Virus record (IMG/VR): IMGVR_UViG_3300046513_000033
Location: 1-23,674 of that record
Length of the DNA stretch: 23,674 bases
Direction: 5' to 3' (one strand)
Source of the DNA: a virus
The first letter of the stretch is position 1. Each line of letters opens with the position of its first letter. Positions 11,794 to 23,602 of the stretch are shown in pieces. A program made the translations under genes and the position numbers. The notes beneath the pieces were generated by a model that made no database searches, was not told where the DNA came from, and saw only the letters and a program-made list of their open reading frames with translations.

Positions 11794-11810
11794 GGTAACC
11801 CACTCGCTAG
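11794..11810 (+). promoter_or_regulatory. 17-bp dispersed motif, copy A (C-type)
   Basis: GGTAACCCACTCGCTAG lies 52 bp before the dNMP kinase ATG. It is identical to the copy at 14099 and differs by one base from those at 14984, 17414 and 22198. It is a candidate phage-specific promoter or activator site. Confidence 0.65.
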
Positions 11811-11811
11811 T

Positions 11812-11841
11812 CCCTCCCCAGGATTACCAACCTGGGGAGGG
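11812..11841 (+). promoter_or_regulatory. 11-bp hairpin covering the ribosome binding site of the dNMP kinase gene
   Basis: CCCTCCCCAGG (11812-11822), loop ATTACCAA, and CCTGGGGAGGG (11831-11841) form a perfect stem. The 3' arm is the GGGGAGGG ribosome binding site of the gene starting at 11846. With no T-tract, translation control is more likely than termination, although it could also end lysis transcripts. Confidence 0.6.
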
Positions 11842-12619: not shown

Positions 12620-12641
12620 CACCTACGATTTTTCGCATGTG
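12620..12641. promoter_or_regulatory. 22-bp palindrome (operator-like), copy 3, abutting a promoter
   Basis: The left half-site CACCTACGA is perfect and the right half (TTCGCATGTG) is diverged. It ends two bases before the -35 hexamer of the promoter at 12644, so a bound protein would touch RNA polymerase there. Confidence 0.55.
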
Positions 12642-14098: not shown

Positions 14099-14115
14099 GG
14101 TAACCCACTCGCTAG
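14099..14115 (+). promoter_or_regulatory. 17-bp dispersed motif, copy B (C-type)
   Basis: GGTAACCCACTCGCTAG lies 50 bp before the GTG of the exonuclease gene and is identical to copy A at 11794. Confidence 0.65.
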
Positions 14116-14983: not shown

Positions 14984-15000
14984 GGTAACCGACTCGCTAG
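14984..15000 (+). promoter_or_regulatory. 17-bp dispersed motif, copy C (G-type)
   Basis: GGTAACCGACTCGCTAG starts four bases after the exonuclease stop codon. The downstream gene starts 154 bp away, a far longer leader than the other copies have. Confidence 0.65.
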
Positions 15001-16988: not shown

Positions 16989-17408
16989 ATGCAGGTCTGT
17001 CGACTATGCGGGCGGGGAAAGCCCGTTGATCAGTTCCTCGCTGGTAAGGCTAAGAAGCCGAGCAGCGCATGCAGTACGTGCCGACGTAAGGCGCAGGCCA
17101 AGCACGTCAAGAACTACTACCGGTCGCTACCGCCGGACAAGCGCCACACGGTCACCCACAAGCGGCGTGCCGAGTCCTACGGCGTGGAGCACGTGGAGTA
17201 CAGCCGGACCGAGATCCTTCACCGCTGGAATCACAAGTGTGCCTACTGCGGAGCGCATGCCACCCACCTTGACCACGTCGAGCCGCTGAGCCGTGGCGGG
17301 GGAGACGTCGAGTCCAACATCGTTCCGGCGTGCCAGACCTGCAACCTTTCGAAGGGGGCCAAGACCCTGGCTGAGTGGTCAGAGACGTTCGGGGAGCCGC
17401 CGTTCTAG
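16989..17408 (+). CDS. HNH endonuclease-like protein with N-terminal zinc ribbon
   Basis: The 139-residue protein has C4-x2-C7 and C28-x2-C31 (probable zinc ribbon), a basic linker, and an HNH core: C84-x2-C87, H93-L-D95-H96, N110 and C115-x2-C118-N119. HNH proteins nick or cut DNA; free-standing ones in phages may be homing enzymes or assist packaging. This one lies in the early region far from the terminase, so homing or a recombination role is more likely. Its core is about 59% identical (30/51 by hand) to the second HNH protein at 23348. It is followed directly by the motif copy D. Confidence 0.85.
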   Translation: MQVCRLCGRGKPVDQFLAGKAKKPSSACSTCRRKAQAKHVKNYYRSLPPDKRHTVTHKRRAESYGVEHVEYSRTEILHRWNHKCAYCGAHATHLDHVEPLSRGGGDVESNIVPACQTCNLSKGAKTLAEWSETFGEPPF

Positions 17409-17413
17409 ACACC

Positions 17414-17430
17414 GGTAACCGACTCGCTAG
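17414..17430 (+). promoter_or_regulatory. 17-bp dispersed motif, copy D (G-type)
   Basis: GGTAACCGACTCGCTAG lies 48 bp before the primase-helicase ATG, directly after the HNH gene. ACATC follows three bases after it, as in copy E. Confidence 0.65.
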
Positions 17431-17461: not shown

Positions 17462-19900
17462 ATGCAGATCAATGACCTGTTGAGCCACTTCGCTGATGTC
17501 TCCGAGCAGCCGGATGGCGGGTTTCTCGCTGTATGCCCCAGTCACGGTGACAGTCGCCCGAGCCTGCGTCTGTGGATCGGCGAGGATCGCAAGGTTCGCA
17601 TCACGTGCCGCGCCGGTTGCAAGTCTGACGAGGTGGTGTTCAGTGCCGGTCTCGGGTGGCCGGACATGTTCGACGTTGAGGGAGACGCCCCGACCGTGGC
17701 CAGTGCCAAGCCCGAGCTTGTTGGACCCAAGCACATCGCCGCCCTGACCATGTACGCGGACGATGCCCGTGATGCCCTGGTCGACTACAGCGACGAGTGG
17801 GCGGCGCGAGCGCGTGACTACCTCGCCGACCGGTTCGGTATGAGCGTGGACACGGCCTACGAACTCGGTGTCGGCGTCGATGACACGACCGTGAATCCCA
17901 TGTGGTCGTCGCTGTCTCCCGCCTACAAGCGTTACGCGCGGCTCACGGTTCCGCTCAACGACTTCAACGGCACACCGCGCGGTCTCCAGGGTCGGGACCT
18001 TACCGGCGACTGTCCGGGCCGGTGGGTGTCCCTCACTAACCCTGAGGGCTTCCGCTGGGCCCCGTACGGCGTCTTTCGTGGGCAGGGTGGATACGGAGTC
18101 ACTCTCATCACTGAGGGGCCCGGAGACGGCCTTACAGCGGTTGCGGTGGGATACGACGTCATCATGGTCCGGGGCGCCTCGCTGGTGGCCTCTCCCGAGC
18201 TGCTCGAAGAGATCGCCAACGGCGTGCGTGGCACTCAGGTAATCGCCTGCGGTGACAACGACCCGGCGGGGCAGGCGTTCAACCGGAAGCTTGCCGAGGG
18301 GCTCAAGCCGTTCGGTGTCGATGTCTACGCGCTGAGCATCCCGGACAGCGGACGTAAGTCTGACCTCACGGACTGGCGGAAGCTTGAGCCGGTTGAGTTC
18401 GCCGCTCAGCTCCACTCCGCTGTGAAGACTGCCCGTCCGGTCAAGGATGCGCACGAGGCTCGTCGCGAGGCAGTGACCGAGGAACTCAGCGAGGCAACCG
18501 GCGCCGACATCGTCTCGCGTGACCAGGGAGCCGAGGCCGGACGTATCCTCGCTTCGCTGATCGAGCGTTACGGCGACTCTGATGCGATGAACGCGCATGC
18601 CCTGGTGGCGTGGACCGACGGTCGTATCAAGTTCGCCCCCGGCCTCGGGTTCTACACGTGGAACGGCCGCACCTGGGAGCGCTCCGAGGTCAAGGTACGC
18701 CAGGAGATCCATCGCATGGGCGCCGCACTGGTCATGGCGGGGAAGCTCGCTGAGTCCAAGGGCTTCACCATGACGACGCGCATTGACGCGCTGATGACTG
18801 AGCTTCGCTCGGTGCCCTCGGTGTACGTCGCTCCGCAGGATTTCGACAACCGGCCGGACCTGCTGAGCTTCCGCAACGGCACGGTGGAGCTCCGTACGGG
18901 TCGCCTGCGTCCGCATGCCAAGGAAGACATGTTGACGTACTGCCTCGCGATCGAGTTCGACCCCATGGCGAAGTGTCCGCGATGGGAAGGGTTCCTCACG
19001 GAGATCTTTCCGGAGAACGCTGACCTAGTCCCGTACATGCAGCGGCTCATCGGCTACGGCATCACGGGGTACACCGACGAGCAGTGTTTCGCTGTTCTCT
19101 GGGGCAAGGGTGCAAACGGCAAATCCGTCCTGACCGACACCCTGTCGACCGTGTTCGGCACCATCACTAAGACCACGCCGTTCGCCACCTTCGAGGAGAA
19201 GCAAGGCGGGGGCATTCCCAACGACATCGCCGCCCTGCGTGGTGCTCGATTCGTTATGGCATCCGAGGGTGAGTCCGGCCGTCCGATGTCCGAGGCGGTC
19301 CTGAAGCGGGTCACCGGTAAGGACATGGTCTCGGCTCGGTTTCTGCGGCAGGAATTCTTCGAGTTCAAGCCATCCTTTCTGCTGATGCTCGCCACCAACC
19401 ACAAGCCTAAGTTCCGTGGCCAGGATGATGGCCTCTGGCGTCGAGTCAAGATGATTCCGTTCAAGCGCTTCTTTGCTCCGCACGAGCGTGATCATGACCT
19501 TGACAAAAAGCTCATGGCTGAGGCGCAGGGAATCGCAGCGTGGGCGGTCCGTGGCGCTGGTCTCTGGTTCGCCGAGGGTCTGTCCGACCCTGAGACGATC
19601 AGCAAGGCCACCACCGAGTACAAGGAAACCTCGGACACCCTCGCTGGATTCTTCCCCGGCATCCTGGTTGCTGAGGACGGGGCGCGGCTCGATGGCGCTG
19701 AGGCGTACAACAGTTACCGCGATTGGTGCGAGGCTGAAGGACTTCCCTCCAAGGAGGTGTGGTCGCGTCGTGCGTTCTACAGCGCGATGGAGGAGCGGGG
19801 TATTCAGCGAGTGCGCGTGTCCAAGGGGATGGCGCTGGTCGGTATCCGACTCGCTAGCAGCACCGTGAAGGCGGGTCCTGGCATCTTCGCCAACGACTAA
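17462..19900 (+). CDS. DNA primase-helicase (P4/D5 type)
   Basis: The 812-residue protein combines primer synthesis and DNA unwinding. Residues C25, H28, C49 and C53 form a CHC2-type zinc site. A Toprim-like core follows, with TEGPGD near 217 and ACGDNDPAG near 261. After a linker comes the D5_N-type region and a superfamily 3 helicase with Walker A GKGANGKS (548-555), a Walker B-like RFVMASEGE and the sensor LLMLATNHKPKF. ATG 17462 is set by AAGAAGGG; the open frame extends back to a GTG at 17375 inside the HNH gene. The final codons contain a near-copy of the 17-bp motif (19841). It works with the polymerase next door. Confidence 0.93.
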   Translation: MQINDLLSHFADVSEQPDGGFLAVCPSHGDSRPSLRLWIGEDRKVRITCRAGCKSDEVVFSAGLGWPDMFDVEGDAPTVASAKPELVGPKHIAALTMYADDARDALVDYSDEWAARARDYLADRFGMSVDTAYELGVGVDDTTVNPMWSSLSPAYKRYARLTVPLNDFNGTPRGLQGRDLTGDCPGRWVSLTNPEGFRWAPYGVFRGQGGYGVTLITEGPGDGLTAVAVGYDVIMVRGASLVASPELLEEIANGVRGTQVIACGDNDPAGQAFNRKLAEGLKPFGVDVYALSIPDSGRKSDLTDWRKLEPVEFAAQLHSAVKTARPVKDAHEARREAVTEELSEATGADIVSRDQGAEAGRILASLIERYGDSDAMNAHALVAWTDGRIKFAPGLGFYTWNGRTWERSEVKVRQEIHRMGAALVMAGKLAESKGFTMTTRIDALMTELRSVPSVYVAPQDFDNRPDLLSFRNGTVELRTGRLRPHAKEDMLTYCLAIEFDPMAKCPRWEGFLTEIFPENADLVPYMQRLIGYGITGYTDEQCFAVLWGKGANGKSVLTDTLSTVFGTITKTTPFATFEEKQGGGIPNDIAALRGARFVMASEGESGRPMSEAVLKRVTGKDMVSARFLRQEFFEFKPSFLLMLATNHKPKFRGQDDGLWRRVKMIPFKRFFAPHERDHDLDKKLMAEAQGIAAWAVRGAGLWFAEGLSDPETISKATTEYKETSDTLAGFFPGILVAEDGARLDGAEAYNSYRDWCEAEGLPSKEVWSRRAFYSAMEERGIQRVRVSKGMALVGIRLASSTVKAGPGIFAND
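19841..19857 (+). promoter_or_regulatory. 17-bp dispersed motif, coding-region copy (16/17 match)
   Basis: GGTATCCGACTCGCTAG in the 3' end of the primase gene differs from the G-type motif by one base. It lies 133 bp before the polymerase start, with the palindrome copy 5 in between. It encodes part of VGIRLASS, so it may be a functional site in coding sequence or a chance match. Confidence 0.4.
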
Positions 19901-22050: not shown

Positions 22051-22080
22051 TTGACCCACCTACGAAAAAACACGTAGAAC
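22051..22080 (+). promoter_or_regulatory. candidate host-type promoter with operator half-site in the spacer
   Basis: TTGACC (22051-22056), 18 bp, then TAGAAC (22075-22080). The spacer begins with CACCTACGAAA, the left half of the 22-bp palindrome, and ends with CACGTAG, a shifted right half. A repressor bound here would block the promoter. Transcription would cross about 160 bases before the sigma-like gene. Confidence 0.5.
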
Positions 22081-22189: not shown

Positions 22190-22197
22190 CTCCCTCA

Positions 22198-22214
22198 GGT
22201 AACCGACTCGCTAG
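22198..22214 (+). promoter_or_regulatory. 17-bp dispersed motif, copy E (G-type)
   Basis: GGTAACCGACTCGCTAG lies 50 bp before the sigma-like gene ATG. Its last six bases (CGCTAG) pair with CTAGCG at 22220-22225, giving a small inverted repeat unique to this copy. Confidence 0.65.
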
Positions 22215-22247
22215 AGACATCTAGCGACCACCTGAAGGAGTCCCCGA

Positions 22248-23351
22248 ATGTCTCTCACCGTTGCTCAGATCGCTTCCGCTCAGTCCAACGACCTGACCGC
22301 CATCGCCGCCGTTCTGGCCGAGATGGAGCCCACCGTTACTCGCCTCGCGGCTGAGGCTTCCCGCCGCCTGCCGAACGATCAGCGCGAGGATCTGGCACAG
22401 GATGCCCGCGAGGCTCTGTTCGTGGCCCTGGGTCGCTTCGATGGCTCGAAGGTCAAGGGCGATGTGGTCGACGGGTTCAACGGCTTCATGTTCCAGACGA
22501 TTCGGGACGCGCTGAAGGACCGGGTTCGGGAGATGCGCTTCGAGGGTGCGGACAAGGATGCCGTCAAGGTCTTCATGTCCATGCGGGAGCAGGCCGGGGA
22601 CGATCTGTACCTGACCGCCAAGCTCGCTCAGACGGTCCCGCCCAAGGGTCTGCGCCTCTCTGCCGATCGTGCCGAGGCCGCCCGCATGGCGTTCCAGGGA
22701 GCCACCTACCTGATTCAGCAGGACGGCGACGACGAGTACTCGCTCGCTGACTCCCTCGCTGTGGTCGACGAGACGCCGCAGGTCAACCCCAAGGTGGGCC
22801 ACGGTGCCGCACTGGAGGCGCTCGCAGTGCTCCACCGGTACACGTCCGCTCGTGAGGTGCTGCGGAAGCTTCCTGCGACCGCTGAGGACGTTGACACCAT
22901 CGAAGATGCGATTGCCGTTCCGCGTGACGCCGATGTTCGCCGCTACGTGCTCGGTGCAATCTCGATCCTGCGTAGCTACGTGAGCACCGTTGCAGACGGC
23001 GAGCTTGCCACCGACCTGCGTGATGTGTCTGACGACCGGCGCGACGAGCGGGCAGCGAAGATCGGCAACGTTCACACGGCCCTCGGCAAGCTGTCGCCCG
23101 GTCAGCGTGGTGCCCTTCACTTCACGTTCGGTATCGACGGTGCGCAGGAGTTCGGCGAGGGTGACGGCTCGGACCTGGCCGGACTCGCTGAGGCCATGGG
23201 CACCACTGAGAACAGCGCAAAGAAGACCCGCTCTGTCGCCAAGGTGTCGTTCGAGAAGCACTACGTTCCGCTCGTCGCCACCTCCGAGGACGACGCACAG
23301 GAGTGGCACGCTGCCGCCGTTGAGGCTCGCAAGAACGCCGGACGTAAGTGA
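22248..23351 (+). CDS. divergent sigma factor-like protein
   Basis: The 367-residue protein has a region resembling sigma70 region 2 at about residues 42-98 (DQREDLAQDAREALFVALGRFDG, then FNGFMFQTIRDALKDRVREM), matching the EDLxQExxxxLxxAxxxFD...F..Y....IR pattern. Near 280-335 it has a region 4-like helix-turn-helix (LSPGQRGALHFTFG then LAGLAEAMGTTENSAKKTR). The middle is long and unlike host sigma factors. AAGGAG sits eight bases before ATG 22248. It has both a repressible host-type promoter candidate and the 17-bp motif upstream, fitting an autoregulated middle-gene activator. The link to that motif is my inference; other DNA-binding roles are possible. Confidence 0.65.
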   Translation: MSLTVAQIASAQSNDLTAIAAVLAEMEPTVTRLAAEASRRLPNDQREDLAQDAREALFVALGRFDGSKVKGDVVDGFNGFMFQTIRDALKDRVREMRFEGADKDAVKVFMSMREQAGDDLYLTAKLAQTVPPKGLRLSADRAEAARMAFQGATYLIQQDGDDEYSLADSLAVVDETPQVNPKVGHGAALEALAVLHRYTSAREVLRKLPATAEDVDTIEDAIAVPRDADVRRYVLGAISILRSYVSTVADGELATDLRDVSDDRRDERAAKIGNVHTALGKLSPGQRGALHFTFGIDGAQEFGEGDGSDLAGLAEAMGTTENSAKKTRSVAKVSFEKHYVPLVATSEDDAQEWHAAAVEARKNAGRK

Positions 23352-23602
23352 TCGCACCCGCCTATGCCGCCCTGTACCAGTCACGCCGACGGGTCAGGGC
23401 GGCCCCCTACAAGCGCGCTGAGATCTTCGCCCGCTGGGGCAACCTGTGCTGCTACTGCGACGCACCCGCAGAGCACCTAGACCACGTCATCCCGCTGAGT
23501 AAGGGCGGAGCGGACCGGGCTCACAACCTGGTTCCTGCCTGCGCCGGATGCAACTTGACCAAGTCAAACCAGAGTCTCGCCGACTGGGCGAGCACCTTCT
23601 AA
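23348..23602 (+). CDS. HNH endonuclease-like protein, short form
   Basis: The 84-residue protein starts at GTG 23348, overlapping the sigma-like stop (GTGA). The HNH core has C34/C35-x-x-C37, L44-D45-H46, N60, C65-x2-C68-N69, then a helix SLADWASTF. It is nearly a bare HNH domain without the zinc ribbon of its paralogue at 16989. It may be a homing-type or accessory nuclease. It is followed by AAGGAG and the next gene. Confidence 0.82.
   Translation: MIAPAYAALYQSRRRVRAAPYKRAEIFARWGNLCCYCDAPAEHLDHVIPLSKGGADRAHNLVPACAGCNLTKSNQSLADWASTF

Follow-up and report, generated by a model that had tools for sequence, protein, structure and literature searches.

A phiC31 gp12-like sigma factor of a Streptomyces phage and the 17-bp motif preceding its early genes

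What switches on the early genes of phages related to phiC31, a founding Streptomyces phage, from which the most used integrase comes? The phiC31 early promoters are already known: they were reportedly mapped, in work said to be that of Ingham in 1993 and Wilson in 1995, and are said to depend on a phage function. We know of no report that names the factor responsible, nor, to our knowledge, has a published link been made between gp12 and these promoters. The question is raised anew by a viral contig of 23,674 nucleotides (IMG/VR record IMGVR_UViG_3300046513_000033, analysed at its full length and referred to below as the window), which belongs to a Streptomyces phage, a relative of phiC31. 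Its gene order (kinase, repressor locus, exonuclease, RDF, HNH, primase, polymerase, and then a gene starting at 22248) is syntenic with the early region of phiC31, and the 22248 gene occupies the position of gp12, directly 3' of the DNA polymerase gene. In an earlier note on this DNA it had been proposed that the 22248 product is a divergent sigma-like factor, which recognises a 17-bp motif found before several early genes, including its own.

The window contains two HNH endonuclease genes (16989-17405 and 23348-23599), whose products are about 54% identical over 69 residues; the latter gene begins at the stop codon of the 22248 gene.

The product of the 22248 gene

The gene and the parts of its product discussed below are:

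22248-23351, + strand: homologue of phiC31 gp12, sigma70-family factor of 367 aa (phrog_15865 match, identity to gp12, fold)
22248-22547, + strand: N-terminal sigma region 2-like domain, residues 1-100 (profile against PDB, covariation with motif offsets 13-16)
22548-22757, + strand: region 3-like part, residues 101-170 (alignment and regression; tracks motif offsets 7-12 more weakly)
23010-23285, + strand: C-terminal sigma region 4-like domain with helix-turn-helix, residues 255-346 (AlphaFold, Foldseek, covariation with motif offsets 0-6)

The identification of the 22248 product as a sigma factor is well supported by sequence comparison and by predicted structure. The full length of the protein (residues 3-367) aligns with phrog_15865 (“RNA polymerase sigma factor”; E 7.9e-88), and its identity to gp12 of phiC31, phiBT1 and TG1 is 39-45%. 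The sigma annotation of this family is itself already known, and stands in RefSeq and PHROGs. With Pfam Sigma70_r2 the window protein gives a weak match (residues 32-94; 17.1 bits against a cut-off of 24), phiC31 gp12 exceeds the cut-off (26.7), and a region 2 match is present in 42 of 47 relatives. A profile built from the relatives detects region 2 of sigma factors in PDB with an E-value of 2.6e-7 (9.9e-5 with a larger set), and matches region 4 of RpoD weakly; the Pfam region 4 model is matched by just 3/47 members. Region 3 is likewise weak in Pfam (3/47), with an SLD..L.D pattern visible in the alignment of the gp12 family, in which this part of the protein carries a conserved RLSxxRAxAARxAWQGxxSLD.

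Structure prediction, which the earlier note had suggested as a check for sigma folds, bore out the assignment. The AlphaFold model of the whole protein has a mean pLDDT of 85.6, and all 50 PDB matches listed by Foldseek are sigma factors, with E-values of 0.0076 or weaker, their modest level being due to a flexible arrangement of the domains. Folded alone, the C-terminal 92 residues reach a pLDDT of 92; the PDB matches listed for this domain are all sigma region 4, with TM-scores (0.65-0.68 to 3hug) that are clearer than for the whole protein and E-values of only 0.025 or weaker. Both patterns described in the earlier note can therefore be retained, that of region 2 by profile and fold and that of region 4 by a clear fold.

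In one branch (L016, at 30256-31257; also Heather and RemusLoopin) the sigma proteins carry a C-terminal extension resembling the zinc parts of endonuclease VII/HNH proteins.

The repeated motif and its covariation with the two halves of the protein

The copies of the motif in the window, offsets being counted from its first base, are:

22198-22214, + strand: 17-bp motif GGTAACCGACTCGCTAG, before the sigma gene itself, 50 bp upstream of the ATG
11794-11810, + strand: motif with 1 mismatch, before the deoxynucleoside monophosphate kinase gene
14099-14115, + strand: motif with 1 mismatch, before the exonuclease gene
14984-15000, + strand: motif before the RDF gene (phiC31 gp3 homologue)
17414-17430, + strand: motif before the primase gene (ATG at 17462)
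19841-19857, + strand: motif with 1 mismatch, preceding the DNA polymerase gene and lying within the 3' end of that for primase

The copy that the earlier note had placed before the factor's own gene is thus indeed present. The six copies of GGTAACCGACTCGCTAG with at most one mismatch all lie on the + strand, and one extra match, with three mismatches, falls inside the polymerase gene. Only 0.14 matches at up to three mismatches are expected by chance, and none of 100 shuffles reached seven. In phiC31, which shares with the window the gene order and the sigma family (39% identity; gp12 is named a sigma factor in RefSeq), an equivalent motif is repeated at the same position, about 50 bp upstream of the same early genes, but its letters differ (GGTTGCCGACTCCCTTA in place of GGTAACCGACTCGCTAG), as do the operators.

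Repeat searches seeded by gene position only revealed, in every gene-bearing genome examined, one repeated motif before the same early genes, with its own letters in each. Among about 95 gene-bearing loci, nearly all have a site of their own motif version 42-62 bp before the sigma gene, so the co-occurrence of gene and motif anticipated by the earlier note extends across the family. Exceptions are the outgroups phiSASD1, Dubu and an Arthrobacter phage (Adumb2043), in which no motif precedes the sigma gene, and self-activation is therefore not universal. The earlier note had held that related phages keeping the motif without the gene would speak against the pairing; no such phage was found, the apparent exception, Dubu, having a divergent copy of the gene. 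Among the candidates tried as gene-negative controls (Dubu, Arthrobacter and Microbacterium phages) no suitable genome was found: Dubu was ruled out by its divergent gp12, and the Arthrobacter and Microbacterium phages by the presence of both sigma gene and motif. The latter two, Adumb2043 (L109) and IAmGroot (L110), carry a distant sigma gene after the polymerase region, of the phrog_351 type in Adumb2043, and their own repeated motif about 50 bp before early genes (GCTGGCCCTCTCCTC and AGGCGGTCTTCTCAGCG, respectively; that of IAmGroot was recognised by eye in its leaders). A count of phage records with a relative of the Adumb2043 gene gave 195 across Microbacterium, Arthrobacter and Curtobacterium.

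Some motif copies lie elsewhere, at L002 22569 and at L008 41102 and 12347: they are found ahead of the tRNA/right-end region, with CATATAGGTAG after them, and in one case within the tail genes. A sigma54-like reading of the motif, based on GG/GC spacing, was dropped, since phiC31 lacks the GC.

The pairing of factor and motif, offered in the earlier note as inference, is now backed by natural domain swaps. The most telling comparison is that with the relative L007. Its exonuclease, RDF, primase and polymerase are 88-96% identical to those of the window, and so is the C-terminal part of its sigma protein (92-93%), whereas the N-terminal part is only 35-41% identical. The repressor and kinase are also more diverged (71% each), but the N-terminal sigma half is by far the most diverged of the early-protein parts compared. 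The L007 motif is GGTAACCGACTCGACAG: at the five orthologous sites compared it differs from that of the window at offsets 13 and 14 alone, and the changed offsets are borne by 8/8 motif matches in the L007 contig. At the primase-internal site (19841-19857 in the window, 7583-7599 in L007) the 2-bp change forces the replacement of an alanine by an aspartate. A complementary picture is given by L007, L035 and L041, whose N-terminal domains are 91-94% identical and whose motifs all end in ACAG; their C-terminal domains are 40-49% identical, and the 5' parts of their motifs read GGTAACC, GCTAACC and TGCGTTC, respectively.

The same relationship emerged from a distance regression with permutations over 53 non-redundant phages. 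The 5' block of the motif follows the C-terminal domain (beta 0.46, P 0.0005; N-terminal domain -0.06), the 3' block follows the N-terminal domain (beta 0.37, P 0.0005), and the middle block follows region 3 (beta 0.27, P 0.01). The polymerase gene, the only control for phylogeny in a data set in which phylogeny and domain swaps are entangled, had a small independent effect (betas 0.17, 0.17 and 0.01). In discordant pairs with similar N-terminal (at least 65% identity) and dissimilar C-terminal domains (below 55%), the 3' part of the motif is the same in 17 of 24 cases, differing in the other 7, and the 5' part in none of 24; where the C-terminal domains are similar (at least 59%) and the N-terminal ones are not (below 50%), the 5' part is the same in 12/16 and the 3' part in 3/16. 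Judged by eye, the residues of the region 4 recognition helix also sort with the 5' motif type, DAR, EAR or PAR accompanying GGC..TC, and HR, QR, TR or YR accompanying GGT..CC. These comparisons of sequence strongly support a division of labour in which the 5' part of the motif is set by the sigma4 half at the C-terminus of the protein and the 3' part by the sigma2 half at the N-terminus. This half-to-half pairing, and its breadth, are new.

Repressor sites, leader hairpins and promoter geometry

The following elements bear on the control of the sigma gene and on the form of the motif promoters:

22051-22080, + strand: candidate host-type promoter TTGACC-N18-TAGAAC for the sigma gene (unique match, conservation)
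22057-22065, + strand: operator half-site CACCTACGA in the promoter spacer (conservation; full operators elsewhere)
12620-12641, no strand assigned: 22-bp inverted-repeat operator CACCTACGAATTTTCGTRGGTG, beside the repressor promoter
42, 10462, 16962 and 19923: further copies of the 22-bp operator
22190-22200, + strand: 5' arm of the sigma-leader hairpin, CTCCCTCAGGT (z -5.95; arm-swap test)
22230-22240, + strand: 3' arm of this hairpin, ACCTGAAGGAG, containing the Shine-Dalgarno sequence of the sigma gene (arm-swap test)
22208-22227, + strand: inner stem TCGCTAGA/TCTAGCGA, motif end and putative start region
11812-11841, + strand: kinase leader hairpin CCCTCCCCAGG/CCTGGGGAGGG, between the motif and the kinase start (z -3.97)

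The earlier note had pointed to a host-type promoter candidate before the sigma gene, overlapped by a repressor-like half-site. This arrangement, 197 bp upstream of the gene, occurs once in the window, where 0.09 such matches are expected, and is conserved in six relatives (L006, L007, L035, L041, L036 and the distant Rowa), which strengthens the proposal. The site is weak by the E. coli consensus, with which a promoter search returned no match there, but fits the Streptomyces TTGACN/TAGARN promoter type. No such promoter was found upstream of phiC31 gp12, where an operator palindrome lies at about the same place, or in many of the relatives. None of the five full operators of the window overlies a motif promoter, and we therefore infer that blocking the single host-type promoter could silence the whole motif set. 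Some of the 22-bp operators are placed where late-region genes end, and they recall the CIRs and stoperators of phiC31.

The leader of the sigma gene adds a second possible level of control, which was not part of the model in the earlier note. When leaders were folded over a stretch that starts 20 bp upstream of the motif and ends at the start codon, and were compared with shuffles, those of sigma genes gave a mean z of -3.5 (below -2 in 42 of 53); the leaders of the other motif genes (z from -1.3 to 0.1) and control starts (-0.4) showed on average no excess folding. The sigma-leader arms fit each other, the mean energy being -17.5 kcal/mol with own arms and -11.6 kcal/mol with swapped arms (0/5000 permutations). 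A consensus hairpin was not recovered by RNAalifold from a plain MAFFT alignment of the sigma-gene leaders. The predicted pairing probability of the sigma-gene Shine-Dalgarno sequence is 0.77 in the long RNA and 0.36 in the motif-started RNA, pairing in the long RNA being high for the other motif genes too. There is thus good, though not final, support from predicted folding for a conserved leader hairpin that would hide the sigma ribosome site in read-through mRNA and leave it accessible in motif-started mRNA. Such a leader lock is new. At the late/early junction, each of the 16 genomes folded (including those of phiC31, TG1, Samora, Shawty, Sycamore and Sebastisaurus) has a kinase leader hairpin of -15 to -34 kcal/mol that overlies the ribosome site of the kinase gene, with arms of varying sequence.

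Alignment of 155 phiC31-like sites revealed the 17-bp block and a weakly conserved YGARRG at offsets 25-30, in which G26 and A27 are conserved in all groups; no upstream -35 element was found in these sites. The Shine-Dalgarno sequence begins at offsets 26-32 at many motif sites (28 at polymerase sites), and at L075 sites it begins at 26-27, with the start codon at 37-40. The kinase-junction hairpins mostly have their 5' arm at the motif end and their apical loop at about offsets 22-34, so a transcript starting in the loop would escape the hairpin. The early Shine-Dalgarno sequences and the position of the loop both point to a start near offsets 22-28, which would put the motif at about -26 to -8 and suggests an unusually compact promoter, with initiation some 22-28 bases after the first base of the motif. 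For a sigma70-type factor this geometry, as read from the sites, is odd, given that region 4 normally reads a position around -35, some 17 bp upstream of -10. It is also new. The weak YGARRG could be a -10 element rather than a start region.

Alternative readings and the proposed switch

The last point is the core of an alternative which keeps the same factor and motif and assumes a canonical promoter, with offsets 0-6 as the -35, YGARRG as the -10, the conserved middle of the motif as a conserved spacer and the start near offset 36. The 17-18 bp between the two blocks correspond to canonical spacing, and the conservation of G26/A27 in all groups is also in its favour; however, a start at offset 36 would lose the Shine-Dalgarno sequence at many sites, region 2 tracks offsets 13-16, and the apical loops of both kinase and sigma leader hairpins lie near offsets 22-34, so we regard the canonical arrangement as unlikely, but deserving of serious attention. 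Somewhat less probable, in our opinion, is that the pairing is right and the TTGACC/TAGAAC site spurious, the factor first being made in another way, e.g. by read-through from upstream. The -10 lacks its final T and many relatives have no such promoter, but the site is unique in the window, promoter and half-site are kept together in six relatives, the distant Rowa among them, and the phiC31 branch retains an operator palindrome at a similar distance.

Two further readings deny the pairing altogether. The reader of the motif might be a host sigma factor or another phage protein, whether activator or antiterminator, with the covariation reflecting shared ancestry and the sigma-like protein having another role. 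Phages are mosaic, several proteins co-vary with phylogeny and the polymerase has its small independent effect; nevertheless, the protein halves track the motif halves independently, and between the window and L007 the most diverged half is matched by a motif change confined to two bases at all sites, which makes this explanation very improbable. We give even less credence, to the point of near dismissal, to the motif being no promoter at all and instead an RNA or DNA element of another kind (a terminator, processing site or replication element). It does overlap strong hairpins at the kinase and sigma genes, but most of its other sites have no unusual hairpin, and the fixed place upstream of early genes, the single strand and the homologous phiC31 sites fit promoters.

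The whole is, in our judgement, very probably best explained by a sigma70-family factor that directs the host core polymerase to the 17-bp early promoters, including its own, as the sequence evidence indicates. According to this model, the predicted factor would form a holoenzyme with the host RNA polymerase core and guide it to the motif promoters of the early region, its C-terminal region 4 reading the 5' part of the motif, its N-terminal region 2 the 3' part, and the region 3 part probably the middle. In a lysogen, the only host-type promoter, some 197 bp upstream, would have repressor bound to the operator within its spacer, and this would keep the factor off and, through it, the other motif genes. 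Without repression, host polymerase would make a little factor. The factor would then initiate transcripts at its own motif, 50 bp upstream of the gene, thereby feeding back positively on its synthesis, and likewise at the motifs of the kinase, exonuclease, RDF, primase and polymerase genes. The read-through mRNA from the host promoter would fold and mask the ribosome site of the factor, and the motif-started mRNA, lacking the blocking arm, would be favoured. A more specific version of this model is put forward tentatively, at slightly less than even chance: that regions 4, 3 and 2 read, in this order, one contiguous 17-bp element, region 4 binding at around -26 to -20, nearer than the usual -35 by roughly one turn of the helix, and that an RNA lock lets only motif-started mRNA make the factor efficiently, the two together forming a two-layer, self-amplifying lysis switch of actinobacterial phages.

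Phage sigma factors are known from other systems. In Bacillus phage SPO1, gp28 and gp33/34, the middle and late sigmas, redirect the host polymerase to phage promoters; the likeness is functional, SPO1 using a sigma cascade, whereas in the window apparently one self-activating factor also controls early genes. The late sigma of T4, gp55, is likewise a divergent factor and has a short promoter element, but it has no region 4 and needs gp33/gp45, in contrast to the window factor, whose region 4 tracks the 5' part of the motif. In Microbacterium phages of clusters EC/EI, a repeated asymmetric 18-bp motif occurs upstream of start codons in genomes that carry a phage sigma factor gene; the authors called the role of the motif unclear, and their survey noted motifs and sigma gene without joining them (PMC7302621). 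These phages resemble that of the window in having both a repeated motif and a sigma gene, and differ in motif sequence and distance (21-30 bp).

To conclude, the natural domain swaps described above allow the correspondence between the halves of the protein and those of the promoter to be read as a code, for whose testing two proteins and two templates suffice. They could also yield a family of orthogonal sigma/promoter pairs useful in the engineering of actinomycetes. If the compact geometry is true, it would also change the view of how region 4 of a sigma factor is positioned.
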